From: a gamma proteobacterium SCGC AAA007-O20
GTDB taxonomy: Bacteria > Pseudomonadota > Gammaproteobacteria > PS1 > Pseudothioglobaceae
Assembly: GCA_000213395.2 (NCBI GenBank)
Contig: AFHY01000005.1
Span: forward strand, 1-55,838
Direction of reading: 5' to 3'
DNA: 55,838 bases
Numbering within the stretch: position 1 is the stretch's first letter; each line of letters opens with the position of its first letter. Below are positions 1 to 55,838 of the stretch, piece after piece. Below the pieces are notes generated by a model, which saw only the letters and a list, made by a program, of their open reading frames with translations, was not told where the DNA came from and made no database searches. Made by a program: the position numbers and the translations under genes.

Positions 1-66
1 GGCTCTATTTTTGGAAATTCAGGTGGAGTATTTGACATAATTTACCTTTTATTTATAATTATTCTT
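1..66. repeat. Terminal 66-bp inverted copy of 3388-3453 (probable chimeric contig end)
   Basis: The reverse complement of 1-66 is identical to 3388-3453 (aagaataattataaataaaaggtaaattatgtcaaatactccacctgaatttccaaaaatagagcc); identity stops at 67/3387. Confidence 0.97.
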
Positions 67-1350
67 GGCCCTCTCTTTGTCCTGATGTTTGTAGGATTGC
101 CGGTCGCGTTTTCATTTCTCGCGGTTAACATTGTTGGATCGTTTATCCTGATGGGTGGCTTGCCGGGCATTAAGCAACTCGTTCTGAATTCGGTTGATTC
201 AGTGTCTAGTTTCGTGCTGATACCCATCGCCCTGTTCATGATTATGGGCGAGGCGATGTTCCGCTCCGGTATCGCAATTGATTTAATGGACACCCTCGAT
301 AAATGGTTCGGGCGGTTGCGTGGGCGTTTGGCGTTAATGGCTGTCGGAGGTGGTGTTCTCTTTTCAACCCTAACCGGCAATTCGATGGGGTCCATCGCGT
401 TGCTTGGATCGTCGCTAACGCCAGAGATGGAAAAGCGAGGCTACAAAAAACCGATGTCGCTTGGTCCGATTCTGGGATCGTCCGGTCTGGCAATTATGAT
501 CCCGCCTTCGGCTTTGGCAGTTGTGCTCGGCGTCATCGCCGAACTCTCAATCCGCCGTATCCTAATCGGCATCATTATTCCGGGTCTGTTGATGGCGCTG
601 CTGTACATCATCTATATACTTGGACGCTGCCGGCTACAACCAGAGCTAGCGCCCTCATTCGACGTGCCAAAGGTTTCTCTTTCTGAAAAACTGTCTGCGA
701 CAGCAATTAATATCCTACCACTCGCATTTGTGATTTTTTCCGTCGTTGGCGTCATTTTCTTAGGGATAGCCACGCCAAGTGAAGCAGCGGCTACTGGCGC
801 CTTTTCGGTCCTTATTTTGGCAGCCCTGAAACGGCGACTGACGTTCAAGGTTTTTGGCGATACAATGTTTTCCAGCGCCAATATTTCGGTGATGGTATTG
901 CTGATCATATCTGGGGCCATAACGTTTTCGCAGCTCTTGGCGTTCACTGGCGCAACCTACGGCATGATTGATGCCGTGATGTCGATTGATATCTCCAATG
1001 AAGCCATTGTTTTCTTGATGATTATGCTCGTGATTTTGATGGGCATGGTTATGGGGCCCTTGCCCATAATGCTGATCACGTTACCGATATTCATTCCCGT
1101 CGTGATACAGTTTGGGTTCGATCCGATTTGGTTCGCGGCGATGTATTTGGTTGCTATTGAAACCGGTGCGACCTCGCCCCCATTTGGCGCGGCTCTATTC
1201 GTGATGAAAGGCGTGGCGCCAAAAGGCACAACAATGGGTGATATTTACGGAGCCGCTGTGCCCTTCGTCATCTGCGACTTTATCGCAATCCTCTTGCTGT
1301 TCTTCATTCCCGAAATTGTGACATATCCAGTGGATCTGATGTTCAAATGA
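67..1350 (+). CDS. TRAP transporter large permease (DctM-like), 5'-truncated at the chimeric junction
   Basis: Polytopic membrane protein with TRAP-T DctM features (GPLFVLMFVGLPVAFSF, GNSMGSIALLGSSLTPEMEKRGYKKPMSLGPILGSSGLAIMIPPS, LGIATPSEAAATGAFSV). The frame is open through position 1, but the first 22 codons belong to the inverted copy. Confidence 0.85.
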   Translation, partial: GPLFVLMFVGLPVAFSFLAVNIVGSFILMGGLPGIKQLVLNSVDSVSSFVLIPIALFMIMGEAMFRSGIAIDLMDTLDKWFGRLRGRLALMAVGGGVLFSTLTGNSMGSIALLGSSLTPEMEKRGYKKPMSLGPILGSSGLAIMIPPSALAVVLGVIAELSIRRILIGIIIPGLLMALLYIIYILGRCRLQPELAPSFDVPKVSLSEKLSATAINILPLAFVIFSVVGVIFLGIATPSEAAATGAFSVLILAALKRRLTFKVFGDTMFSSANISVMVLLIISGAITFSQLLAFTGATYGMIDAVMSIDISNEAIVFLMIMLVILMGMVMGPLPIMLITLPIFIPVVIQFGFDPIWFAAMYLVAIETGATSPPFGAALFVMKGVAPKGTTMGDIYGAAVPFVICDFIAILLLFFIPEIVTYPVDLMFK

Positions 1351-2915
1351 CCGAACGACCTAGCTTCATTGTCTTTATGACAGACCAACAAAGGGCTGAT
1401 CATTTAGGTTGCTATGGGAATCCCATCGTACGAACTCCAAATATCGATGCGATTGCCAATCGTGGAACGCGGTTTGATAATTTCTATGTCGCAAATCCAA
1501 TTTGCCAACCAAACCGTGCAGCACTTGCAACGGGGCAGTTGACGTCGGTCAACGGGTGCAGGCAAAACGGTATACCACTCGGCTTGGATTGCACGACCTA
1601 CGCGGATGTCTTGCGATCTAGTGGTTATCGAACAGGTCTTGTAGGCAAAGCACACTTTCAGAACATCTCACCGATTGAGGCAAAGTTACCTCAATCAAAT
1701 GGGAAAGGCGAAGAACCAAACGGGCCCTACAACCTAGCCTTAAGATCGCAACGGCGAGGTTCGGAATATGAGTGTGAAATTCGAACAAGCTGGATCAAGA
1801 ACCCTAATAAGGAATTATCACTTCCCTACTATGGATTTGATCACGTTCGCTTGTGTATTGGGCACGGTGACCAGGTTGAGGGACACTATTCTGGCTGGCT
1901 GAAAGGCAAACTGGCTGGGGCGACAGACCCACGCGGACGGGCTGGGGCGTTGGAAGACGGTTTACCGGAAACGCCACAAATTTGGCGCACAGCACTGTCC
2001 GAGGAACATTATCCAACGTCATATGTTGGTGAGCAGGCTTGCGAATTTCTTGAGGAACAGGACGATACTCCATTCATTCTTGTCGTGTCTTTTCCAGATC
2101 CTCACCACCCATTTACACCCCCAGGTCGCTATTTTGATCTTTATGATCCTGCGGACATCCCGCTGCCAAAAAGTTTTAGTCATCGAACCAGCGCCAGAAG
2201 CGATTTACCTAACCATATTCAGAGGATGTATGAAATTGGCGCGGAAAAACCCGATGAGTTCTGGCCATTTCATACTGATGATAAGGCCACGCGCCGCATG
2301 ATCGCGCTGAATTACGGTACGATCACCATGATTGACGAACAAGTTGGCGTTGTGATGCAAACCCTGAAAAATACGGGAAAATCCGAAAACACCAATATCA
2401 TCTACATGTCAGATCACGGCGACTATATGGGTGATCATGGCACCGTTCTTAAAGGCGGGGTTCACAGTCACGGGCTGATCCGTGTACCGCTGATCTGGTC
2501 CGATCCGGTAAATCGCGGGATGGACGTCACGGGAATTCAAGGTAGTGCGATCGATTTTGCACCCACGCTTCTGCAAAAAGCGGGTCTGAAAGTCCCGTAT
2601 GGAATGCAGGGTCGTGATCTTTTGGCTGATGATGTCAAAAACTTACCTGTACTGATCGAGGATTCCGGCTTCTTGATGGCTTCGGACGATGGTCGTACTG
2701 CTTTCTGGTCGCTCGTTCATGACAGTTGGCGGATGAGCGTTTTCGAAGGATCTGATCTTGGAGAGCTTTTTAATCTTGGCGAGGATCCGGATGAGTTGGA
2801 TAACCTGTGGGCTGATCCCACTGCAAAATCGCAGATAATGGCGATGATGCATTTGCTGATTGACCGGCAAATTGCCCTTCGAAGTAAGTCTCTGGTTCCA
2901 ACCCATCAGGCCTGA
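1347..2915 (+). CDS. Sulfatase family hydrolase (Cys-type sulfatase, choline-/aryl-sulfatase-like)
   Basis: N-terminal PSFIVFMTDQQRADHLGCYGNP and sulfatase signature CQPNRAALATGQ (C-x-P-x-R); DHGDYMGDHG metal-site motif. Overlaps the dctM stop by 4 bp. Confidence 0.92.
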   Translation: MTERPSFIVFMTDQQRADHLGCYGNPIVRTPNIDAIANRGTRFDNFYVANPICQPNRAALATGQLTSVNGCRQNGIPLGLDCTTYADVLRSSGYRTGLVGKAHFQNISPIEAKLPQSNGKGEEPNGPYNLALRSQRRGSEYECEIRTSWIKNPNKELSLPYYGFDHVRLCIGHGDQVEGHYSGWLKGKLAGATDPRGRAGALEDGLPETPQIWRTALSEEHYPTSYVGEQACEFLEEQDDTPFILVVSFPDPHHPFTPPGRYFDLYDPADIPLPKSFSHRTSARSDLPNHIQRMYEIGAEKPDEFWPFHTDDKATRRMIALNYGTITMIDEQVGVVMQTLKNTGKSENTNIIYMSDHGDYMGDHGTVLKGGVHSHGLIRVPLIWSDPVNRGMDVTGIQGSAIDFAPTLLQKAGLKVPYGMQGRDLLADDVKNLPVLIEDSGFLMASDDGRTAFWSLVHDSWRMSVFEGSDLGELFNLGEDPDELDNLWADPTAKSQIMAMMHLLIDRQIALRSKSLVPTHQA

Positions 2916-2981
2916 AGGGAACCGCATGGTCCGAACAAAAAATATAGGATGTTGTTGGTTTAGTTGAAGTATAATTAAAAC

Positions 2982-3007
2982 ATGAACACATTGTTCATAT
3001 ATGAACA
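2982..3007. promoter_or_regulatory. Overlapping palindromic operator candidate upstream of the catabolic cluster
   Basis: Perfect 16-bp palindrome tgttcatatatgaaca (2992-3007), overlapped by atgaaca-cat-tgttcat (2982-2998); a TATAAT hexamer lies at 2970-2975. Confidence 0.6.
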
Positions 3008-3027
3008 TATATAACTTAAGGTGAAAT

Positions 3028-3324
3028 ATGAAAAATGAATACGTAGAATTAAATGCAGAGTCTTTACATAGTTCAAATTTAGCTAGTCAATCCCAAGGGC
3101 GAGATTTAGATACTAATGAAAAAGCACTCGCTAAAGCTTTGATGAGTATTTTTGAAAAAGGAGTGCATGATTTCAAAGATGTTGCTGCTGCTCTTTCGAG
3201 TATGAAAGTTATTGCACCACGAAGCGGCCTAAAGGACTGGACAATTGACTTACTTAATGAAGAGCTTATAGAAACTAATAATCAGCTAGATTTAGCTTAT
3301 AGGGAAAACGGTTTTGGCGCTTGA
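3028..3324 (+). CDS. Small protein, possibly of the recombinase-like helix-turn-helix domain type found next to Rieske/cupin genes
   Basis: 98 aa ORF (NEKALAKALMSIFEKGVHDFKDVAAALSSMKVIAPRSGLKDWT); family assignment from recall only. Confidence 0.5.
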   Translation: MKNEYVELNAESLHSSNLASQSQGRDLDTNEKALAKALMSIFEKGVHDFKDVAAALSSMKVIAPRSGLKDWTIDLLNEELIETNNQLDLAYRENGFGA

Positions 3325-3415
3325 ATTTAAAAATATATCAAGGTTCTTTGTGATCCCTGGTGGTCAATTTGAAGCCTTAAGAGGTTTAAGAATAATTATA
3401 AATAAAAGGTAAATT

Positions 3416-3970
3416 ATGTCAAATACTCCACCTGAATTTCCAAAAATAGAGCCACATAATGTTCAAATTCCAAGTGGTCAAAGTTTTAAAGAATGGATTG
3501 AGAGTCGTACTGCTCGATATGAAACCCGAACAGTTGATTGGAATGCACTGAAATTTCAAGCTGATTTTGATCCCAAATATAAGCGTGCTCAAATGCGATA
3601 TATTGGAACAGGTGGTTCGGGAGTTACATCGGATCCGAATGTTGTTCCAGCTGATCACTTCACATTTTCAACTATGGTTTTGCCTGCTGGTTGTGAAGGG
3701 CCACTGCACATTCACTACGATGCAGAAGAAGTATTTTTTATTCTAAAGGGTAAAAAAATTAGATTATTTTTTGAGCACAAAGGTGAGGAAGTAGAAACAG
3801 TTTTGACAGAAAGAGATGTAATCTCAGTTCCACCTGGTGTTTATCGCGGGTTGCGTAATGAAGGTGTTGAAGAGGCGCTGATGTGTGTCATGATTGGTAA
3901 TCCAAAACCCGTGATACCTACTTATCCAGAAAGTCATCCGATTTCTAAAATTAAACGACCAGAGAATTAA
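3416..3970 (+). CDS. Cupin domain protein
   Basis: Single cupin fold: GPLHIHYDAEEVFFILKGKKIRLFFEHKGEEVETVLTERDVISVPPGVYRGLRNEG. Confidence 0.85.
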   Translation: MSNTPPEFPKIEPHNVQIPSGQSFKEWIESRTARYETRTVDWNALKFQADFDPKYKRAQMRYIGTGGSGVTSDPNVVPADHFTFSTMVLPAGCEGPLHIHYDAEEVFFILKGKKIRLFFEHKGEEVETVLTERDVISVPPGVYRGLRNEGVEEALMCVMIGNPKPVIPTYPESHPISKIKRPEN

Positions 3971-3995
3971 CAAAAATGCATCAGGAGTGTAATTA

Positions 3996-5036
3996 ATGCC
4001 AGATTTAGATAGAAGCGAATTAATTGAAAATAGAATTAATAGTGGAATATTGGGGCAGTGGTACCCTGTAGCCAAATCAGTTGAAGTGAAAAGTATTTCA
4101 CCTCTTGGCATTGAAGTACTCGGAGAAAAACTTGTACTTTGGCGTGGTGACAGTGGAAAAGTTCACTGTATTAAAGATCAGTGTCCTCATAGAGGTGCGC
4201 CATTATCATTTGGAAGACTTCATGAAGGACATATTTCCTGCCGTTATCATGGAATCGTTGTTAGTGGAGAAGGTGTTGTTGTGACTGTTCCAGCTATGAA
4301 GAACTGCAAATTTGAAGGACAAAAGATTGTTAGAGCGTTTGAGGTTACAGAAATTTATGACGCTATTTTTATCTATATGCCTTCTGCTGAAAACGAAAAA
4401 GCACCACGTATGGTGTTTCCAAAAGAATTTCTTTCAGATAGTTGGTCGGGTTTTTTATGTACCGCAGTATGGAAAACAAATTACAGATATGCTCTAGACA
4501 ATCTTGCTGATCCGATGCATGGATCATACTTACACGCAGAAAGTTTTACGCTTGCATACGGCACTAAAGAAGATTTATTTAAGGTAGATCATACCGAGAA
4601 TGGGTTTATCGTTAGTCGTACTGGACAGTTAGGTGAAAATTTTGATTGGACAGAGTTTGAAATGCATGATGGGACAATGTTTTGTTTTCTAGATATTCCT
4701 TATCCGAAAGCTGCAGGCCCAGGTGGAAATATGCGAATAGTAGGTTTTGTTCTACCTATTAATGAGAACTCTTGCAAAGTATTTTTTTGGCGCATGAGAG
4801 AGGTTAGTGGCATCCAACGTGATTGTTGGAGATTTCTTTATCGAACAGAGCTGGAATCAAAGCACTGGACAGTCTTAGAGCAGGATCGAGAAATATTAGA
4901 GGCCATGTCAGATGATGTACGTGGCAATGAAAAGTTATACCAACATGATGTTGGTGTAAATCGTATTCGCCAAACTCTCTTGAAGCAAGCAAAATCAAAT
5001 GTTGACTTTGAGCTAAACATCGAGGGCAAGTCATAG
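3996..5036 (+). CDS. Rieske 2Fe-2S aromatic-ring-hydroxylating/demethylating oxygenase alpha subunit
   Basis: Rieske motif CPHRGAPLSFGRLHEGHISCRYHG; mononuclear iron motif DNLADPMHGSYLH. Confidence 0.93.
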   Translation: MPDLDRSELIENRINSGILGQWYPVAKSVEVKSISPLGIEVLGEKLVLWRGDSGKVHCIKDQCPHRGAPLSFGRLHEGHISCRYHGIVVSGEGVVVTVPAMKNCKFEGQKIVRAFEVTEIYDAIFIYMPSAENEKAPRMVFPKEFLSDSWSGFLCTAVWKTNYRYALDNLADPMHGSYLHAESFTLAYGTKEDLFKVDHTENGFIVSRTGQLGENFDWTEFEMHDGTMFCFLDIPYPKAAGPGGNMRIVGFVLPINENSCKVFFWRMREVSGIQRDCWRFLYRTELESKHWTVLEQDREILEAMSDDVRGNEKLYQHDVGVNRIRQTLLKQAKSNVDFELNIEGKS

Positions 5037-5773
5037 TGCTTAATAATCGCTCAATATTGTTGACTGGCGGTGCACGTGGATTAGGCGCAGAAATTGCCAA
5101 ATGTCTTTCCGAGCACGGAGCTAAGATTATTATTGCAGATATAGATGCTGAAGAAGGTCGACGCACTGCAAATAAACTAGGTGTTCACTTTTTTCATGTA
5201 GATTTAGAGGACCCAAATTCCATTGAAGCTCTTCTAAAAGATGTTGCTAAAACTTTTGATGGCAAACTAGACGGCTTGGTTAATAATGCGGCTATTGCTA
5301 CAGGAATTGGTGGAGTTTCATTTGAAGAAATTGACCTAAACACCTGGGATAAAGTTATGCGTGTAAATGTACGAGGAACCTGGCTAATGACTCGGGCGGC
5401 TGCGCCACTATTACGCGCTTCTGGCTCTGGAAGGGTAGTAAATATTGCATCTGATACAGCTATTTGGGGTGCGCCATTATTGTTGTCATATGTCGCTAGC
5501 AAAGGTGCAATCATATCTATGACAAAATCTCTTGCACGAGAGTTTGGCTCTGACCAAGTTGGTATAACTGCTGTTGCTCCAGGGATTTTAACTACTGACT
5601 CAACTAATGATGTTTCTGCAACTAGACACAGTTTTTATAATGAAAATCGCGCCGTTCCTGGTCCTCAAGCACCTGAAGATATTACTGAAACAATAAGCTT
5701 TCTTTTGACGAAAGGAGCATTAACCCTTACTGGCCAACTTCTGACTGTTAATAATGGCTTTGTCTTTTCTTAA
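5036..5773 (+). CDS. SDR family oxidoreductase
   Basis: TGGARGLG cofactor motif, NNAA, YVASKGA catalytic motif. GTG start overlapping the Rieske gene stop. Confidence 0.88.
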   Translation: MLNNRSILLTGGARGLGAEIAKCLSEHGAKIIIADIDAEEGRRTANKLGVHFFHVDLEDPNSIEALLKDVAKTFDGKLDGLVNNAAIATGIGGVSFEEIDLNTWDKVMRVNVRGTWLMTRAAAPLLRASGSGRVVNIASDTAIWGAPLLLSYVASKGAIISMTKSLAREFGSDQVGITAVAPGILTTDSTNDVSATRHSFYNENRAVPGPQAPEDITETISFLLTKGALTLTGQLLTVNNGFVFS

Positions 5774-5777
5774 TTTT

Positions 5778-6611
5778 ATGAATAATTTAAGTCATCACAA
5801 ATCTGGACCAATTGAGTTTTTTGAAAGAAAAGGTCATAGCGAACTTGAAGTTGTCCTTCTTCATGGAATTGGCTCAAATGCATTATCTTTTAAGTCACTG
5901 ATCAAAGAATTGCCAGACAGCTGGAGATTAATTGCATGGAATGCTCCAGGATATGGCAACTCGGAGCCTTTAAAACCAGACTGGCCAATTGCTGAAGATT
6001 ATGCTTTGGCTCTTAAGAATTTTTTTAATAGACTTAAATTAAAATCTCCTCTTTTAGTTGGACATTCACTAGGTGCGTTAATCGCCACAAGCTTTGCTGC
6101 CAACTACCCAAAAAATGTTTCAAAACTGCTGCTTGCATCTCCAGCTTTGGGTTATGGTCAAGCAGTAAATGAAACTCTTGACTCGAAAGCCCAAGAACGA
6201 ATTGATGAACTTGAATTATTAGGAGTAGAAAAGTTTGCAAAAAGGCGCGCTAGTAGGCTTGTAGCCAACCCAGATGAATTCCCAATGATTGTCTCAAAAG
6301 TTATCAAAGAAATGATGCGAATAAATATACCTGGATACATTCAGGCAGTTAAGATGCTTGCTTCTGGTGAATTATTGAAAGATGCACTTAAATTAAATTG
6401 TCCAACTGATGTTGTCGTTGGAGCTGAAGATATAATTACCACACCAGAATCATCTCTTAAGGCCTATGAGACAATTAATTCAGTTGTTTTAAGCAATTTC
6501 ACTGAACTTCAAGGAGCGGGTCATGCAATTTATCAACAATCTCCAAAAAACTTTGCTAAATCTTTAAAAAAATTAGCAAAATCTAACTTTTTAGTAACTT
6601 CTACAGGATGA
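5778..6611 (+). CDS. Alpha/beta hydrolase (meta-cleavage-product hydrolase-like)
   Basis: LHGIGSNALSF oxyanion region, GHSLGA nucleophile elbow, GAGHAIYQQ His motif. The longer ORF starts at 5754; ATG at 5778 preferred. Confidence 0.82.
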   Translation: MNNLSHHKSGPIEFFERKGHSELEVVLLHGIGSNALSFKSLIKELPDSWRLIAWNAPGYGNSEPLKPDWPIAEDYALALKNFFNRLKLKSPLLVGHSLGALIATSFAANYPKNVSKLLLASPALGYGQAVNETLDSKAQERIDELELLGVEKFAKRRASRLVANPDEFPMIVSKVIKEMMRINIPGYIQAVKMLASGELLKDALKLNCPTDVVVGAEDIITTPESSLKAYETINSVVLSNFTELQGAGHAIYQQSPKNFAKSLKKLAKSNFLVTSTG

Positions 6612-6615
6612 AACT

Positions 6616-7539
6616 ATGACTAACTTTTCTCTTATTGATGGGCTACGAGGAATTGTAATGCGTGGGCCTAATTTAACAGAGAGCTGCTCTTTTTTTGAGA
6701 ATCTCTGGGGATTAACACTTTCTCACTCTGAAAATGACGAAGTTTTTTTTCGGGCTAATGGTTCAGAACCTATAGCCTATGGTTTAATCAATCATCCAGT
6801 TTTTGGAATTGAATATATTCATTTTTCAACAAAAAATCGTTCCTCAATGAATGCTCTTTTCAAGCAACTTGTTAAACAAAATTGCACAATAATTAGTAAA
6901 CCAGGAGTGTTTAATGATTTTGCTGGTGGGTATGGTTTTGAAATTTTAGATCCTGATAACCGTCGCCTAAGATTTCGAACTGATGCACTTAAGTTAACTA
7001 ACAATAAAAAGTGGGGTTACCCTGATAAGGTTTCACATGTTGTTTTGAATACTCCTGATATGGAAGGGCTACAAGATTTTTTTACGTCCGTATTAGGTTT
7101 TCGTGTATCTGATTATTCAGGTGACCAGATGGTCTTTTTAAGATGTAATAATGAGCATCATACTATTGCTTTATCAAGGTCTAATCATCCAAGTGTTAAT
7201 CATGTTGCATTTGATTTATCATCAATTGATGAGTTTATGCATAGTATTGGAAGAATGAAACAAGCGGGTCACAATGTATCCTGGGGACCTGGTCGACATG
7301 GGCCTGGCAACAATCCTTTTGCATACTTTGTTTCTCCACCCGGCTTTGTTGTTGAATTTACAACTGAGTTACAAATAATTAATGAAAAAAAGCATCAGCC
7401 CAAGGTTTGGTCAAGGAATGATCCAGCATCCATGGATTTATGGATGACAGCAGGTCCACCATCAACTGAACAGAGGACAGCTATGCAGGGTAGATCAGAT
7501 CCTGGCTTTCCTAATCAAATCCATTCTAAGGGTAAATAA
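6616..7539 (+). CDS. VOC superfamily dioxygenase (type I extradiol dioxygenase-like)
   Basis: Two VOC repeats; VSHVVLNTPD, NHVAFDL and GFVVEFTTE consistent with a 2-His-1-Glu metal site. Confidence 0.8.
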   Translation: MTNFSLIDGLRGIVMRGPNLTESCSFFENLWGLTLSHSENDEVFFRANGSEPIAYGLINHPVFGIEYIHFSTKNRSSMNALFKQLVKQNCTIISKPGVFNDFAGGYGFEILDPDNRRLRFRTDALKLTNNKKWGYPDKVSHVVLNTPDMEGLQDFFTSVLGFRVSDYSGDQMVFLRCNNEHHTIALSRSNHPSVNHVAFDLSSIDEFMHSIGRMKQAGHNVSWGPGRHGPGNNPFAYFVSPPGFVVEFTTELQIINEKKHQPKVWSRNDPASMDLWMTAGPPSTEQRTAMQGRSDPGFPNQIHSKGK

Positions 7540-8330
7540 TGATTAATTTTGATTATAAAAATAAGGTAGCAGTTGTTACCGGTGGTACATCTGGAATTGG
7601 CCTTGCAACGGTAAGAATTCTTCTTAAGTCAGGCGCAAAGGTCGCATTTTGCGCTCGTTCAAGAGAGCGATTATTGGAAGTTGAAAGTAAGTTAAAGCTT
7701 GAATTTAGTAACGACCAGGTTTTTGCAAAAGCACTATCCGTCCTAGATCAAAATGAAGTAAATAAATTCTCAAAAGATGTTGAATCACAATTCGGAAAAT
7801 GTGATTTACTTGTGAATAATGCAGGACAAGGAATGATTTCTACATTTAATACAACTGACGACGATGATTGGAAAAGTGAATACGAATTAAAGATTTTTAG
7901 TCAAATATATCCAATTAGAGCCTTTCAGTCGATGTTAAAAAAAGAAAATGGATCAGTTGTTGTTGTTAATTCACTTCTTGCAATCCAGCCAGAACAACAC
8001 ATGATATGTACTTCTTCGGCTAGGGCTGCAGTACAAAATTTAATTAAATCTTTAAGCGTTGAATTCGCACCACACATTAGATTTAATTCAATCTTGTTAG
8101 GATTAATAAAAACAAATCAATGGGAGAGTCGATTTGAAGATCGTGAGGATAAATCAATCAACAGGAATGATTGGTATCAAAACCTTGCTTTAAATAAAGG
8201 TATTCCACTAGGAAGATTAGGTAACCCAGAAGAAGTTGCTAGCGCAATAGCTTTCCTTGGATCTTCGGATTCTTCCTATATTACGGGAGCCCAACTTGAA
8301 ATTTCAGGAGGCTTATCAAAACATATATAA
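7539..8330 (+). CDS. SDR family oxidoreductase
   Basis: VVTGGTSGIG cofactor motif, NNAGQG; the catalytic Tyr region is atypical (ICTSSARAAVQ in place of YxxxK). LGRLGNPEEVASAIAFL C-terminus. Confidence 0.82.
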   Translation: MINFDYKNKVAVVTGGTSGIGLATVRILLKSGAKVAFCARSRERLLEVESKLKLEFSNDQVFAKALSVLDQNEVNKFSKDVESQFGKCDLLVNNAGQGMISTFNTTDDDDWKSEYELKIFSQIYPIRAFQSMLKKENGSVVVVNSLLAIQPEQHMICTSSARAAVQNLIKSLSVEFAPHIRFNSILLGLIKTNQWESRFEDREDKSINRNDWYQNLALNKGIPLGRLGNPEEVASAIAFLGSSDSSYITGAQLEISGGLSKHI

Positions 8331-10016
8331 GTGAATCTAATGAGTAGTACTTATTTATCAAAACTAGAAACAGTCTCGGATGCCATAGCAAAATATATGG
8401 CTGATATTGGTATTAGTGTAATTTTTGGGGTAATTTCAATTCATAATATGCCCATCCTGGATGCAATAGCCCGTCAGAATAAAATTCGCTTTGTTCCAAC
8501 TCGAGGTGAAGCAGGTGCCATCAATATGGCCGACTCATACTCTAGAGTAAGTGGAAATTTAGGGGTTTGTATAACATCTACAGGAACTGCCGCTGGTAAT
8601 GCCGCAGGGTCTCAATTAGAGGCATTAACTGCAGGCTCAAAAGTATTACACATTACTACACAAATTGATACTGAATTTTTAGATTGCAATTCTTCAGCAA
8701 TCCATAGTGTTCCTAATCAACCTGATATGCTGAAATCTATATCAAAGGCTTATTTTTTCATTAAGAGTGCCACAAAAACGTTAGAAACAATTTCTGCCGC
8801 TATTTCATCAGCAATTTCTCCACCAGCTGGACCGGTCAGTCTAGAAATACCTATCGATGTTCAGCTTTCTCAATTGAGCTATCCTAGATCTATTGAGAAA
8901 CCTAAACCAAGTAGAATTTTGATATCTGAAGAGTCTATTGAAGAACTTGCAGAACTCGTTAAAAAGGCAAAACGACCCATGCTTTGGCTAGGAGGCGGTT
9001 CACGCAGCGCTTCTGTTGAAGCAACTGAACTTATAAATAGAGGATTTGGTGTAGTGACCTCTACCAATGGACGCGCAATAGTTGATGAAAATCATACAGC
9101 AAACCTTGGAGCATTCAACATGACTCAAGCTGCTTCTTTAATTTATTCAAAAAGTGATTTAATGATTGTTGTTGGATCTAAATTAAGAGGGAATGAGACA
9201 CTAAACTACAAAATGAAACTCCCCCCACTTGTTCAAATTGATGCTCATGATTTTCATGGAGTAAGAAATTATAAGACTCAAAAGTTTATTCATGGTGATG
9301 CTAAGGAAGCACTTCAGAAACTACTAGAATTATTGCCTGTAAAATTAAATGTTGACAAAAAGTTTCATGATGATATCCAAAAAGCCCGCATGTTAAGCGA
9401 ATCTAAGCTCCTGGAAACGCTTGGGCCATATAGCAATATAGCGAATACATTAAAGGATATCGTCTACAGTGGTTCGCATCCATGGGTTAGAGATGTCACT
9501 ATTGCTAATTCAACATTTGGTAATCGCTATGTAAAAATTGCTAAAGCTTTTCTAGGCGTTCATGCCCTTGGAGGTGGTATTGGTCAGGGCATATCTATGG
9601 GAATCGGTGCAGCAATTGCAAGTGAGAAAGCAAAAGCTATTGTACTCATTGGTGATGGCGGTGCGATGTTAGGTTTGGCTGAAATGATCACTGCTGTTAG
9701 TGAGAATGCACCATTGGTTTATGTGCTCATGAATGATCAGGCTTATGGTGTTATAGAAAATATTCAAGATGCTCAATATGACAGTCGTCGCTACTATTCT
9801 AAATTAGATGTGCCAGATTTTTCATTTTTTTGCCAATCCATCAAATTGCCTCATCAAATTGTTAAAGATGTAAAAGATTTTCAGGACTCAATCGAAAGAG
9901 CACTTAAGGCTAAAGGACCGCAGATGGTAGAAGTTGATATGTGCAGTATTGGGCCATTTACTGAAGCATTTTCTGGACCCCCTGCTGGCTCTGCAAATAC
10001 TAAGGAGGTAGTATGA
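8331..10016 (+). CDS. Thiamine-diphosphate-dependent enzyme (acetolactate synthase / benzoylformate decarboxylase-like)
   Basis: TRGEAGAINMADSYSRVSG catalytic Glu region; IGDGGAMLGLAEMITAVSENAPLVYVLMNDQAYG ThDP-binding motif (GDG...N). Confidence 0.88.
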   Translation: MNLMSSTYLSKLETVSDAIAKYMADIGISVIFGVISIHNMPILDAIARQNKIRFVPTRGEAGAINMADSYSRVSGNLGVCITSTGTAAGNAAGSQLEALTAGSKVLHITTQIDTEFLDCNSSAIHSVPNQPDMLKSISKAYFFIKSATKTLETISAAISSAISPPAGPVSLEIPIDVQLSQLSYPRSIEKPKPSRILISEESIEELAELVKKAKRPMLWLGGGSRSASVEATELINRGFGVVTSTNGRAIVDENHTANLGAFNMTQAASLIYSKSDLMIVVGSKLRGNETLNYKMKLPPLVQIDAHDFHGVRNYKTQKFIHGDAKEALQKLLELLPVKLNVDKKFHDDIQKARMLSESKLLETLGPYSNIANTLKDIVYSGSHPWVRDVTIANSTFGNRYVKIAKAFLGVHALGGGIGQGISMGIGAAIASEKAKAIVLIGDGGAMLGLAEMITAVSENAPLVYVLMNDQAYGVIENIQDAQYDSRRYYSKLDVPDFSFFCQSIKLPHQIVKDVKDFQDSIERALKAKGPQMVEVDMCSIGPFTEAFSGPPAGSANTKEVV

Positions 10017-10840
10017 CAAGACTAGGAATAATTGGTTTCGGTAATATTTCAACAACATTGCTTACACTTCTTAAAGATGTTCTTGAGGATCCATTGGAGC
10101 ATCTCACCATTGTTTGTCGGCCAGAATATGAATCTCAAGTCAATCAAATTATGAGGAAAGATTTTAACGATGTTGCTTTAGAGATTAGCATAACTAGTAA
10201 TACAGAAATTCTAATAAATAACAAACCCAACCTTGTTGTTGAATGTGCAGGCCATGATGCTGTTACTGAACATATTGCTCAAGTCTTGAGTGCAGGTTTT
10301 GACACTGTAATGGCATCAGTCGGCGCTTTAGCGGACGCAGCTCTTGCTGATTCTTTGTATGATGCGGCACATAAAGGGATGTCTAGACTAATAATTCCAG
10401 CAGGTGCTATTGGAGGAGTTGATTTATTGGCATCATTGAAAAAACATGGAAAGCTGGATGTTTCTTATAGGGGAATAAAGCCACCTGCTGCATGGTCAGG
10501 AACCTTAGCTGCCAAACTTATAAACCTAGATGATTTGTCCGAAGAAACAGTGATTTTCAGTGGCTCAGCTCGTGAAGCTGCCAGTAGCTATCCCAAGAAT
10601 GCTAATGTTGCTGCCACTATTGCTCTAGCAGGTGCAGGTTTTGAGGCAACTCAAACTGAGCTAGTTGCTGATCCAAAAGCAACTGGGAATATACATGAAT
10701 ATAGTGTAGATTCTCCCTTAGCCCATTATACTCTTCGAGTTGAAAGTCAACCTTCATCAGGCAATGCGAAAACATCTGTGACAACTGTGTATAGTATCTT
10801 GCGCGAAATCACTAATCGTATAGGTCCTATTGTAATTTGA
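10013..10840 (+). CDS. L-aspartate dehydrogenase-like (NadX family) oxidoreductase
   Basis: LGIIGFGNIS Rossmann motif, VVECAGHDAV, IIPAGAIGGVDLLASLK, GIKPPAAWSGT; ATGA overlap with the upstream gene. Confidence 0.82.
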   Translation: MTRLGIIGFGNISTTLLTLLKDVLEDPLEHLTIVCRPEYESQVNQIMRKDFNDVALEISITSNTEILINNKPNLVVECAGHDAVTEHIAQVLSAGFDTVMASVGALADAALADSLYDAAHKGMSRLIIPAGAIGGVDLLASLKKHGKLDVSYRGIKPPAAWSGTLAAKLINLDDLSEETVIFSGSAREAASSYPKNANVAATIALAGAGFEATQTELVADPKATGNIHEYSVDSPLAHYTLRVESQPSSGNAKTSVTTVYSILREITNRIGPIVI

Positions 10841-10849
10841 GGATAACAA

Positions 10850-12328
10850 ATGATTAAAATGCCCGATGGTAAGTTGTTTATTGGTGGAGTATGGGAAACT
10901 GGAACTGGAGAAGAAATAGTTTCAATTTTTCCAGCTGATGGCTCCATCAACTGTTCTCTTTATGGAGCTTCAAAAAATGACGTCCTGCGTGCAGTCAAAC
11001 TTGCCAAATCTGCACAATCTCAGCCTTCTTGGCGCTCATTAAAACCACACGAGCGAGCTCGATATTTATATGCAATTGCTGATGGAATTGAAGCTAATAT
11101 TGATAGAATTTCACAAATACAAACACGTGATACCGGAAAAACACTTAGAGAAACAGCAATCTTAGCAAGCTCTGCTTCTGGAACTTTCAGGTATTTTGGA
11201 GCACTTCTTGAAAGTAGTGACGATTTACTTACAGCCCAGCGGAATGAATCGTTGACCATGTCAGTCTATGAGCCATTGGGTCTAGTTTCAGCAATAACTC
11301 CATGGAATTCTCCTATTGCATCAGATGCTCAAAAAATTGCGCCAGCGTTAGCGGCAGGAAATGCGGTGCTATTAAAACCATCATCGTGGTCTCCCTTAGT
11401 AAGTCTTGAGCTTGCAAAAATAATTGAATCCTCAGGCTTACCAAAAGGTTTATTTTCGGTATTACCAGGATCAGGTGAAAAAGTTGGTAATTTGTTAGTT
11501 GAGCATCCAGATATTTCTAAAGTAACATTTACCGGTAGTACCAAAACTGGACGAAGCTTAGCAATAAAAGCAGCAAAAAAGTTGATGCCTATTTCATTAG
11601 AGTTGGGAGGAAAGTCCCCAGTAATAGTATTTAAAGATTCTGATATAGATATTGCAATTGCAGGTGTTATGTTTGGTATTTTTTCATCAACTGGTCAAAG
11701 TTGTATCGCAGGCTCACGGTTATTTGTTCAAAAAGATATATACAATGAATTTGTTGAGCGATTGGTAAAAGCAACAAAAAAACTGAAAGTTGGTAGCCCC
11801 TATAATCTAGATACTCAAGTTTCTACAATGATCCATCCGCAACATCGCGATAGTGTAGCGGCGTATGTTGATCTGGCACGCAACGAAGGGGGAAAGATAT
11901 TGTGCGGTGGGAAAAGCCCGAGTGGTGCAGAGTATAAAAATGGTGCTTACTACCTGCCAACAATTATTACTGAAGTCGATAATTCAGCTCAGATTTGCCG
12001 TGAAGAAGTTTTTGGCCCAGTTTTAGTTGTAATGCCCTTTGATGATGAAGCTGATGTTATTGCACAAGCCAATGAGAATGAATATGGTTTGGCTTGTGGA
12101 ATTTGGACCAGTGACTTTCCGAAGGCATGGCGAGTGGGTCGAGCTATTAATGCAGGTACAGTCTGGGTTAACACATACAAACAATTTTCAATTTCGACAC
12201 CTTTTGGTGGTGAAAAAAACAGTGGTATGGGTAGGGAAAAAGGAAGAAACGGTATTCGCGCTTTCATGTCTCAAAAGTCGCTTTATTTTGATCTTACTGG
12301 GAATTCGCATCCATGGGCAGAAACATAA
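10850..12328 (+). CDS. Aldehyde dehydrogenase (NAD(P)+)
   Basis: TPWNSPIA, FTGSTKTGRSLA, ELGGKSPVIV, catalytic GQSCIAGSRLFVQ, EVFGPVL. Confidence 0.93.
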   Translation: MIKMPDGKLFIGGVWETGTGEEIVSIFPADGSINCSLYGASKNDVLRAVKLAKSAQSQPSWRSLKPHERARYLYAIADGIEANIDRISQIQTRDTGKTLRETAILASSASGTFRYFGALLESSDDLLTAQRNESLTMSVYEPLGLVSAITPWNSPIASDAQKIAPALAAGNAVLLKPSSWSPLVSLELAKIIESSGLPKGLFSVLPGSGEKVGNLLVEHPDISKVTFTGSTKTGRSLAIKAAKKLMPISLELGGKSPVIVFKDSDIDIAIAGVMFGIFSSTGQSCIAGSRLFVQKDIYNEFVERLVKATKKLKVGSPYNLDTQVSTMIHPQHRDSVAAYVDLARNEGGKILCGGKSPSGAEYKNGAYYLPTIITEVDNSAQICREEVFGPVLVVMPFDDEADVIAQANENEYGLACGIWTSDFPKAWRVGRAINAGTVWVNTYKQFSISTPFGGEKNSGMGREKGRNGIRAFMSQKSLYFDLTGNSHPWAET

Positions 12329-12365
12329 TAATGGATATTTGTTTTGATAGTAGAAAGAAGAAAAT

Positions 12366-13166
12366 ATGAAAAAAATTGAAAATGGAAATTTAAATAAAAA
12401 CAACTATTCAGTCCCTCCTGTTGAACGTGCTATAAGGCTTCTTCAATATATTGGTGAGGGTAACAAGTGTCGTAACCTTACTAAGGCATCAAGCCATTTA
12501 TCTATAAACCGAACAACATTAATTCGATTAATTTACTCCTTACTCGACAACGGAATGATTGAACAAATTAGAGAAGATGGAGGTTATTGCCTTGGAATTG
12601 GAGTCATTTCACTTGGGGCACAAGCAATTCAATCAAGAGATATTGTCCAGATGTCATTGCAGTCGATCCAAGAGTTAGTGAAAAAATCAAATATGTCTGC
12701 ACATCTAGGCATTCTTGATGGAATAGATGTTGTGTATCTAACTCGTGAAACTCCTAAAGCACATCTGATTAGTAATATGCATATTGGTTCGCGTTTACCC
12801 GCACATGCTTCGTCTATTGGAAGAGCAATTCTTGCTGATCTTAGTGAAGTAGCAGTAAAAGATATATATAAAAATAGCGAATTAAGCGGTGGAACCAATA
12901 AAGCACCTCAAAATCTTCAGCAAATATTAAGTCAACGTAAAATTGATGTCAAGCGAGGTTATGTTTGGAGTGTTGGAATGATTGAACCCAATATTGGATC
13001 TTGTGCCGCAACTATTTATAACCATGAAGGAAAGCCTATCGCTGGATTGAACGTAAGTGGACCAAAAGATATCTTCATTAATGAAAACTCAAAACAGGCA
13101 ATTATTATTAGAGAAGCTGTACTTGATGCTGCAAGAATAAGTTCTGCAGCAATGGGATTTAGATAG
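12366..13166 (+). CDS. IclR family transcriptional regulator
   Basis: N-terminal wHTH (VPPVERAIRLLQYIGEG...LSINRTTLIRLIYSLLDNGMIEQ) plus IclR effector domain (IGSRLPAHASSIGRAILADL, GYVWSVGMIEPNIGSCAATIYNHEGKPIAGLNVSGP). Confidence 0.92.
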   Translation: MKKIENGNLNKNNYSVPPVERAIRLLQYIGEGNKCRNLTKASSHLSINRTTLIRLIYSLLDNGMIEQIREDGGYCLGIGVISLGAQAIQSRDIVQMSLQSIQELVKKSNMSAHLGILDGIDVVYLTRETPKAHLISNMHIGSRLPAHASSIGRAILADLSEVAVKDIYKNSELSGGTNKAPQNLQQILSQRKIDVKRGYVWSVGMIEPNIGSCAATIYNHEGKPIAGLNVSGPKDIFINENSKQAIIIREAVLDAARISSAAMGFR

Positions 13167-13177
13167 AGGAGCTCTGA

Positions 13178-14404
13178 GTGCGATTTGATGCGCTTTCATC
13201 TGCTCCTTACAGACGTTTCTGGCTTGGATCCATCGCCTCAGTAGGTAGTACGCAGCTCTATTTTCTAGGGATGGCATGGCTCGTTTTCGAACTCAGCAAT
13301 TCTGCACTCAATCTCGGCCTGCTTGGTGCAGCAACTGCGGTACCCACCATTCTTGCAACTCTGGCTGGTGGTCTGGTTGCAGATCGAATAAACCGCCGCT
13401 CAGTTTTAATTTTGACCACTGGGACTTCAGCTATACTGCTGCTTATACTGGCGGTACTGGATGCCACTGAGCTAGTGCGGGTTTGGCACGTCCTCTTAAT
13501 TTCAGCCCTGCTTGGATTGGTACAGGGTTTTGATTTTCCGTCGCGCTCTTCGATTTTTCCAGCACTGATTGAACCAAAACAGATGATGAGCGCCGTTGCA
13601 TTAAATTCTATCCTTTGGCAGGGATCACGTATGATTTTTCCGGCAATTGGAGGACTGCTCATTGCACTGACCGACACCTCACTAATCTTTGTCATATGTG
13701 GAATTGGTTTTATAACAATGGTTATGGTACTGTTTTCAATTGAACTGGAGCAGATAATTCAGGATAAGACTGACCCCTGGAACGAGTTTAAAGATGGAGT
13801 GAGATATGTTATTCACCAACGATTGTTCCTAACCTTGATCCTGTTGACTTGGATCTCCATGTTTTTTGGAACATCTTTTATACAGATCATGCCAATCTTT
13901 GCTGACATTTTGCATAGTGGAGAACGCGGATATGGTTTATTAATTTCGGCAACCGGGCTCGGTTCAGTAGCTGGGAACTTTTTCATATCTCACTTTCAGC
14001 AATCCCGTCGACTGGGGTTACTGATGTTATCTTGTGCAGCTTTGGCACCATTCTCACTGGTAGGTTTCAGTCTGGTTACAGGGACATTGGCCAATACGGC
14101 CGGGGCATTTTGGCTTGCCTGCTTTTTAGTAATTTTAGCTTCAGCCTTTAGTTCAGTCTTTCTGGTTAGCTCCATGACAGTTTTACAGCTCAAAGTACCC
14201 GATAATTTACGCGGCCGCGTGATGGGAATTCACAGCATCACTTTCAGCATGATTGCACTCGGTGGACTTGCTATCGGAGCCCTGGCTACAAAATTTTCAG
14301 CCCCGGTTGCCGTGGTTATAGGAGCGGTGGTAGTGCTGTCATCATTAATCTGGGTGACGATTCGACAGGGAGAAATAACCAATCTTGATGGCAGCGAACT
14401 ATGA
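13178..14404 (+). CDS. MFS transporter
   Basis: About 12 TM helices, ADRINRRSVLI loop, EntS-like MFS pattern; visibly higher GC than its neighbours. Confidence 0.85.
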   Translation: MRFDALSSAPYRRFWLGSIASVGSTQLYFLGMAWLVFELSNSALNLGLLGAATAVPTILATLAGGLVADRINRRSVLILTTGTSAILLLILAVLDATELVRVWHVLLISALLGLVQGFDFPSRSSIFPALIEPKQMMSAVALNSILWQGSRMIFPAIGGLLIALTDTSLIFVICGIGFITMVMVLFSIELEQIIQDKTDPWNEFKDGVRYVIHQRLFLTLILLTWISMFFGTSFIQIMPIFADILHSGERGYGLLISATGLGSVAGNFFISHFQQSRRLGLLMLSCAALAPFSLVGFSLVTGTLANTAGAFWLACFLVILASAFSSVFLVSSMTVLQLKVPDNLRGRVMGIHSITFSMIALGGLAIGALATKFSAPVAVVIGAVVVLSSLIWVTIRQGEITNLDGSEL

Positions 14405-29423: not shown

Positions 29424-30845
29424 TTATTTATGTTGAATATCTAGCTTATCAACTGTATCAAACTCGAACTTGATTTCTTTCCAAGTTTCCATTGCTACTT
29501 TAAGTTCAGGTGAATGTTTCGCTGCGCTTGTAAGAATATCCTTTGACTCTTTCTCTAATTCACGACCTGCATTACGCGCCTCAACACATGCCTCAACCGC
29601 AACACGATTTGCAGCCGCACCTGCAGCGTTACCCCAAGGGTGGCCAAGGGTACCACCACCAAACTGTAATACTGAGTCATCACCAAAAATGTTAACTAGT
29701 GCTGGCATATGCCATACATGGATTCCTCCAGAGGCAACGGGTAGCATACCCGGCATTGAACCAAAGTCTTGATCAAAGAAGATACCTCTCGAGCGGTCCT
29801 CTTTAATGAACCTGTCACGCATACAGTCAATCCAACCTAGTGTTGAATCTCTATCGCCTTCAAGTTTTCCTACAACAGTACCTGAATGCATGTGATCACC
29901 TCCAGAAAGACGCAAACATTTAGCTAATACACGGAAATGAATACCGTGGTGTGGGTTTCTGTCAACAACTGCGTGCATTGCACGGTGGATATGAAGTAGT
30001 AAGCCGTTGTCACGACACCAGTTCGCAAGACCTGTATTAGCTGTAAAACCTGCAGTAAAGAAGTCATGCATAATAATTGGCGTACCAAGCTCTTTGGCAT
30101 ATTCGGCACGCTTATACATTTCCTCAGGGGTTGCTGCAGTAACATTCATGTAGTGACCTTTGCGCTCTCCCGTCTCTTTTTCAGCTTTTTCAATGGCATC
30201 TTGAACAAAAGTGAAACGATCTCTCCAACGCATAAACGGTTGTGAATTAACGTTTTCGTCATCCTTTGTAAAGTCAAGACCACCTCGAAGACCTTCATAA
30301 CAGGCACGGCCATAGTTTTTAGCAGAAAGACCCAACTTAGGTTTAATTGTGCAACCCAACAATGGGCGACCATATTTGTTCATTTTGTCTCTTTCAACCT
30401 GGATACCATTTGGCGGTCCACCGCAAGTCATTACGTATGCAATCGGGAAACGAATATCTTCAAGTCTAAGAGCCCTTAGTGCCTTAAAACCAAAAACATT
30501 ACCAACAAGAGAGGTAAGAACATTAACGATCGAACCTTCTTCAAACAAATCAATCGGGTATGCAATGAATGCGTATATTTCGTCATCAGATCCTGGAACA
30601 TCCTCAATACGGTAGGCGCGACCCTTATAGTAATCAAGATCTGTTAATAAATCTGTCCAGACTGTCGTCCAGGTACCTGTTGAAGACTCAGCCGCTACAG
30701 CTGCAGCAACCTCCTCTCTTGGTACACCAGGCTGTGGTGTTATTTTAAAGCATGCTAGAATATCCGTATCTTTCGGTTGATATTCTGGCATCCAATAGGT
30801 GTCGCGATATTCTTTTACACCAGCATCGTAACCTTTCTTAGCCAT
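29424..30845 (-). CDS. cbbL: RuBisCO large subunit, form I
   Basis: [46 protein letters not shown] active-site region; [15 protein letters not shown]. Confidence 0.98.
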
Positions 30846-50651: not shown

Positions 50652-51929
50652 ATGATAATTAAACAAATCAAAGCCCGTGAGGTTTTAGATTCTAGAGGCA
50701 ACCCTACTGTTGAAGCAGACGTAATTCTTAGTAACGGCATTTTCGGAAGTGCAATGGTTCCATCAGGAGCATCCACTGGTCAACGTGAAGCTTTGGAACT
50801 AAGGGATGGCGATAAAAACCGTTATTTGGGCAAAGGTGTTACTCAATCTGTTAATAATATCAATCATGAGATTAACGACGCCCTCGTTGGTATGAAAATC
50901 TCAAATCAACAAGCTCTTGATCTAAAAATGATTGACCTGGATGGCACTGAAACAAAATCTCGTTTAGGTGCAAATTCTATTCTGGCAGTATCTTTAGCCT
51001 GTGCCCATGCCAATGCAAACAACAACAAACAATCACTTTTTCGTTCGTTTGATTTTTCTGAAACTTATCAACTCCCAGTCCCCATGATGAACATTATCAA
51101 TGGCGGTGAGCATGCAAATAATAGTGTTGATATCCAAGAGTTTATGATTATCCCAGCTGGAGCACCTAACTTCAAAGAAGCATTACGGTATGGTGCTGAA
51201 GTTTTTCATCATTTAAAAAAGTTGCTTGACCAAGAAGGTCTTAATACAGCCGTCGGAGATGAAGGTGGTTTTGCACCTGACTTAAGCTCTAACGAGGAGG
51301 CTTTAAAGATTATAGTTAAAGCTATTGAGAGTGCAGGATATGAAGCAGGAAAAGATATCTTTATTGGAATTGATGCTGCTAGTTCTGAGTTTTACAACAA
51401 TGATACCTATAACTTATCCTCAGAAGGTTTGAAACTCAGTAATGAAGAATTTACGAATTATCTTACATCTTGGGTTGAAAAATATCCAATTATTTCGATT
51501 GAAGATGGAATGGATGAAAATGATTGGTCAGGCTGGGAGATGCTTACCAAAAAATTATCTGACAAAGTTCAATTGGTAGGTGATGATTTATTTGTTACTA
51601 ATAGTAAAATTTTAGCTAAAGGTATAGAGAACAATATTGCCAACTCGATCCTTATCAAAGTCAACCAAATAGGCACACTTACAGAAACGTTTAACGCAAT
51701 GAAGATGGCTTTAAGTGCTGGATACACTTGCGTTATGTCTCATAGAAGTGGCGAAACTGAAGATACTACTATTGCAGATCTATCTGTTGCAACCAACTGT
51801 GGACAAATTAAAACAGGCTCATTATCTCGTTCTGACAGGCTTGCAAAATATAATCGATTGCTGCGTATTGAAGAGGAACTAGGGGATGATGCATTCTATC
51901 CTGGACTCAGTGCATTCAAACATCTTTAA
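50652..51929 (+). CDS. eno: Enolase
   Basis: [48 protein letters not shown]. Confidence 0.98.
51407..51472. repeat. Internal source copy of the right-end 66-bp inverted repeat (within eno)
   Basis: Identical to the reverse complement of 55773-55838. Confidence 0.97.
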
Positions 51930-55105: not shown

Positions 55106-55773
55106 TAAGCAAGCTTTGCCAAAATAAAGTCAATTACAGCCTTGAGCTCAATTTCAATTTTCTCAACTTCGTTTCGTGATTTGTATTCTATATTACCACT
55201 ATCGGCATGAGTGTCGCTGATAACAAGTCGGTGGGGGATACCCAAGAGTTCAGAGTCAGCAAACATAATGCCTGGTCGCTCTTTTCGATTATCTAGTAAC
55301 ACTTCAACTCCTTGACTTAGAAACTGTTCATAAAGTTCATCAGCCAGCTTTCTAACTCTGCTAGATTTGTTGTAATTTATTGGAACAATAACAAGTTGAA
55401 ATGGAGCTATCGACTCAGGAAAAATAATCCCTTTTTCGTCATGGTTTTGCTCAATGCTTGCCGCAACAATACGAGTTACACCAATACCATAACAACCCAT
55501 ATTCATATTTACAGCTTTGCCATCTTCACCAATAACATTGGCATTCATTGCGTCAGAATATTTTGTACCTAATTGAAAAATATGGCCAACTTCAATACCA
55601 CGCTTAATTTCAAGCTTACCTTTTCCATCTGGAGAAGGATCGCCAGATACCACGTTACGTAAATCAGCTGCAACAAAGTTTGAGGTATCACGACCCCAGT
55701 TAACGCCAATTAAATGTTTCCCTTCATCATTTGCACCACACACAAAGTCTGACAAGCAAGCCGCTGCATAGTC
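55105..55773 (-). CDS. proS: Prolyl-tRNA synthetase, C-terminal part (truncated by the chimeric contig end)
   Basis: [48 protein letters not shown]-terminal anticodon-binding domain. The ORF-track start [10 protein letters not shown] lies in the inverted eno copy. Confidence 0.92.
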
Positions 55774-55838
55774 AAGATGTAAGATAATTCGTAAATTCTT
55801 CATTACTGAGTTTCAAACCTTCTGAGGATAAGTTATAG
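55773..55838. repeat. Terminal 66-bp inverted copy of eno 51407-51472 (probable chimeric contig end)
   Basis: The reverse complement of the last 66 bp matches the internal eno sequence exactly; identity stops at 55772/51473. Confidence 0.97.

Follow-up and report, generated by a model that had tools for sequence, protein, structure and literature searches.

Of 475 chimeras that arose when the DNA of a single E. coli cell underwent multiple displacement amplification (MDA), 85% were inverted, and the two segments of most inverted pairs lay less than 10 kb apart (Lasken and Stockwell 2007, PMC1855051). Complementarity of at least 2 bp, and up to 21 bp, was found in 93.5% of the inverted chimeras spanning less than 10 kb, and the authors explained such joins by displaced 3' ends re-annealing, within a single branched molecule, to other displaced strands close by (PMC1855051). 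The left end of the contig analysed here (the window, 55,838 nucleotides in its whole length) joins two segments in the same inverted manner: comparison of the window sequence with itself confirmed, as the initial annotation had stated, that bases 1-66 are the exact reverse complement of 3388-3453 (66/66 identity), about 3.3 kb away and in opposite orientation. We propose that this end is very probably an in vitro MDA inverted chimera whose extent was set by the assembler, rather than a biological inverted repeat. The same preference had been expressed in the initial annotation, and it is now strengthened by the geometry, a 9-bp microhomology at the junction, the absence of this junction in relatives, and its recurrence in kind at eight other contig ends (Table 1).

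Table 1. Coordinates of the features discussed, and terminal copies at contig ends of the assembly.
Feature	Coordinates or contig ends	Strand	Remarks
Foreign tail, not native dctM upstream	1..57	+	Reverse complement of 3397-3453; homology of relatives from 58 (n=4)
9-bp microhomology ATTATTCTT at putative template-switch junction	58..66	+	Common to the reverse complement of 3388-3396 and native dctM codons 9-11
Native dctM, TRAP large permease, without first codons	67..1350	+	Pfam DctM PF06808, E 8.5e-73
Native sulfatase gene	1347..2915	+	Pfam Sulfatase PF00884; collinear in relatives
Source of left inverted copy, cupin leader/start	3388..3453	+	Exact match to 1-66
Cupin gene	3416-3970		Conserved in relatives
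Source of right-end copy	51407..51472	+	Inside enolase gene (50652-51929)
Second probable artefact, right window end	55773..55838	+	Joined to proS; exact 66-bp inverted copy of 51407-51472
66-bp inverted same-contig ends	C162 left and right (window), C160 left, C152 left and right
Other inverted same-contig ends	C130 right, C153 left, C161 right, C158 right		65, 52, 100 and 44 bp
Direct same-contig copies	C137 ends, C156, C158 (secondary), C166		54, 32, 35 and 20 bp

The left-end copy and its junction with dctM

The source of the copy spans the cupin leader and the first 12 codons of the gene. The 66-bp sequence occurs in these two places only, no third copy being found in the organism's own genome (1.03 Mb, 166 contigs), and the chance expectation for exact inverted pairs of 66-mers is about 1e-29. 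The repeat finder returned the pair as 74 bp at 96%, because positions 70-74 (CCTCT) agree again past a three-base mismatch.

For comparison we used four SUP05/Thioglobus records, three of the same genus, AG-464-B02 (G008), RIS_SAG_56 (G023) and AH-558-A21 (G027), and the more distant REDSEA-S12_B1 (G011). Their homology to the window starts at base 58, and bases 58-66 are therefore a microhomology shared by both parent sequences. In register, ATTATTCTT is identical to the native dctM of G027 and G008 (9/9), while G023 and G011 carry one or two mismatches within these nine bases. Such a stretch is as would be expected if a 3' end had re-primed at this position. At position 72 the window and the inverted source both have T, where 4/4 relatives have A; the difference is silent and is either a polymorphism or a vestige left by the junction.

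The initial annotation had described a truncated TRAP permease with a spurious hydrophobic N-terminus, a description that calls for a slight correction. The dctM N-terminus is normal in the four congeners (MEWYYIIAIILGPLF...), and residues 1-19 of the open frame in the window (GSIFGNSGGVFDIIYLLFI) are foreign; from residue 20 onward (IILGPLF...) the protein is native. As the frame enters dctM at codon 9, just the first eight native codons (MEWYYIIA) are missing. The expected upstream neighbours are indeed present in G023, where the operon reads dctP, dctQ, dctM, sulfatase, the first two genes being named by sequence and position. The native dctP-dctQ stretch was sought elsewhere in the assembly of the window's own genome and not found; the true upstream part was thus not recovered.

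The TRAP/sulfatase locus and its surroundings

In the close relatives dctM, the sulfatase gene, the HTH gene and the cupin gene are collinear, and the DNA of G008 and G027 aligns with the window without a break from 58 to 6000 at 96% identity. The sulfatase shares 94% amino acid identity with its homologues in G008, G023 and G027, the cupin protein is 96-98% identical in the same three genomes, and homologues of both, with their order kept, are also found in G011. Despite the higher GC content of the TRAP/sulfatase part (49% versus about 37% for the rest), we therefore consider 67-3387 to be native on the basis of its collinear gene order. A genuine inversion around this segment, the alternative put forward in the initial annotation, is left without support, since close relatives carry this native segment at the same location.

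The raised GC of positions 1-3000, between the inverted repeats, could also suggest that 67-3387 is a mobile element or a genomic island, with the 66 bp as its terminal inverted repeat. Yet the right arm of such an element would be made up of a conserved cupin gene's leader and the beginning of its coding sequence, and in relatives the segment occupies the same position but lacks the left arm; a pair of arms surrounding the element in relatives, outside conserved genes, was not found. The annotated genes are dctM, the sulfatase gene and that of a small HTH_62 protein, with no transposase among them, and 66-bp arms are also seen at unrelated contig ends. We thus give a mobile element virtually no credence. 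A chimera with contaminant DNA (67-2930, of higher GC) was considered as well, and was rejected because the segment is 96% identical and lies in the same place in two congeners.

Several further observations concern this region. The TRAP/sulfatase segment 67-2930 is kept in few congeners only and was possibly acquired separately from the cupin cluster; homologues of its sulfatase in three Rhodobacteraceae-type genomes show 53-56% identity. G023 carries an extra FAD-monooxygenase-like gene (L024 9747-11006) between the sulfatase and HTH genes, where the window has none. A conserved operator-like element, TGAACACATTGTTCATATATGAACA, precedes the HTH/cupin operon at 2981-3007 and contains a perfect 16-bp palindrome (2992-3007); a similar element is found before dctP in relatives (L025 about 6860-6936; L023 about 9163-9252, minus strand; L024, L026). 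Its presence in both places suggests a common regulator for the catabolic operon and the TRAP importer, perhaps encoded by the IclR-like gene at 12366-13166. The catabolic cluster (3028-14404) encodes the HTH_62 protein, the cupin, a Rieske oxygenase, SDRs, a hydrolase and a glyoxalase, as well as a ThDP enzyme, an aspartate dehydrogenase-like protein, an aldehyde dehydrogenase, the IclR-like protein and an MFS protein. Beyond the genus, the nearest counterparts of its cupin are those of Rhodobacteraceae (about 80%), which hints at a horizontal transfer of the cluster into a Thioglobus-like bacterium that has a RuBisCO large-chain gene (29424-30845 in the window).

Recurrence at other contig ends

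The right end of the window displays the same arrangement. Four relatives run on normally into proS, and the two closest agree with the window up to 55775, leaving a 3-bp microhomology at the junction (55773-55775). With an exact inverted copy from the enolase gene attached to proS, we regard this end as a second independent example of the artefact.

We then determined the longest exact match elsewhere for each of 92 ends, belonging to the 46 readable contigs larger than 3 kb (contigs below C121 were excluded, and sampled contigs of this genome under 3 kb consisted wholly of N). Inverted terminal copies from the same contig were found at 9 of the 92 ends, five of them exactly 66 bp long, with segments 1.6-20 kb apart (7/9 under 10 kb); between contigs, one more 66-bp copy connects C164 with the end of C143. 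Same-contig copies in direct orientation are less numerous and for the most part shorter, and 1978 of 2000 random internal positions have no exact repeat of at least 20 bp. Besides the left end of the window, four ends have a 66-bp same-contig copy, and at three of these, namely the right end of the window, C160 left and C152 right, the homology of relatives overlaps the copied stretch by only 3-4 bp (4 bp each at the latter two); the divergence of the relatives is too great for the overlap to be fixed at C152 left. The C160 locus has a linear native arrangement in two complete genomes (G006, G028), which are relatives and not the same strain. Apart from these, contig C137 (L151, G000) has a 54-bp direct terminal overlap (1-54 / 7376-7429), and the ATP synthase beta gene on it appears to break off early into a recN-like fragment (about 1074-1168); this contig may be a further chimera and not a small circular replicon.

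The survey bears on whether the left end could reflect a real event, with an inverted duplication or a polymorphic inversion affecting the dctM/cupin locus in this cell or strain alone. The junction sequence is exact and internally consistent, as such an event would have it, but none of the four relatives shows this junction at dctM, and both the 66-bp length and the inverted geometry are repeated at unrelated loci, including the right end of the window. A private rearrangement would have to imitate the artefact at eight other ends of the assembly, and a length fixed by the assembler speaks against a real event, which would not show one. We consider it very unlikely. The length of 66 bp is set by the assembler and not by biology, a point that goes beyond the initial annotation, and probably corresponds to k-1 of a 67-mer assembly graph.

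These ends matter solely for annotation hygiene. Neither the opening 57 bases of the contig nor those from 55776 to its right end are native in place, and the dctM N-terminus as read from the window is wrong; seven further contig ends with the same type of artefact would mimic inverted repeats or rearrangements.

Proposed formation of the chimera and comparison with described systems

We envisage that, during phi29 amplification of the DNA of one cell, a strand would have been copied leftward through the cupin gene to about 3388. Its displaced 3' end could then have met, 3.3 kb away on the same molecule, the complementary single strand at the dctM start, paired with it through ATTATTCTT and been extended rightward through dctM. 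The assembler, tracking dctM leftward over the junction, would have halted after adding k-1 bases that the contig already contained at another place, thus creating a 66-bp inverted contig end. The sequences directly show the 66-bp match, the shared bases at the junction and the repetition at other ends, while the priming event, the use of MDA, the single-amplified-genome source and the value of k are what we infer; the completeness of the genome (62%) and its 166 contigs offer only a hint of phi29 MDA.

Ligation during library preparation can also create inverted chimeras. This source, or a pure assembly error, would take the place of MDA in a reading that draws on the fixed 66-bp length, which shows the involvement of the assembler. 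What has been described as the signature of MDA, however, is an excess of inverted joins that span short distances and carry microhomology (PMC1855051), and in the metagenome assembly of a congener (G018), which has 77-bp end overlaps, no inverted same-contig case was found among the 20 left ends examined. We hold an origin in library preparation or assembly to be extremely improbable, and retain the MDA chimera.

The nine ends resemble the inverted MDA chimeras described in E. coli (PMC1855051) in the inverted join of two segments, in their spacing (3.3 kb at the left end of the window, mostly under 10 kb, all within 20 kb), in junction complementarities of 9, 3, 4 and 4 bp at four of them, and in a left-end junction absent from independent genomes, in this case relatives only, where the locus is native (G008, G023, G027 and G011). 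They depart from them in being contig-end remnants, mostly of 66 bp, and not reads; the join at C152 left, at 20 kb, exceeds the typical span, and the terminal copies that differ from 66 bp likewise sit less well with the MDA reading. The constant exact overlaps (66 bp here, 77 bp in G018) recall the k-mer overlaps at forks of de Bruijn graphs. Yet inverted joins inside one contig need not prevail at forks caused by ordinary repeats, whereas nine ends are inverted here and few are direct.
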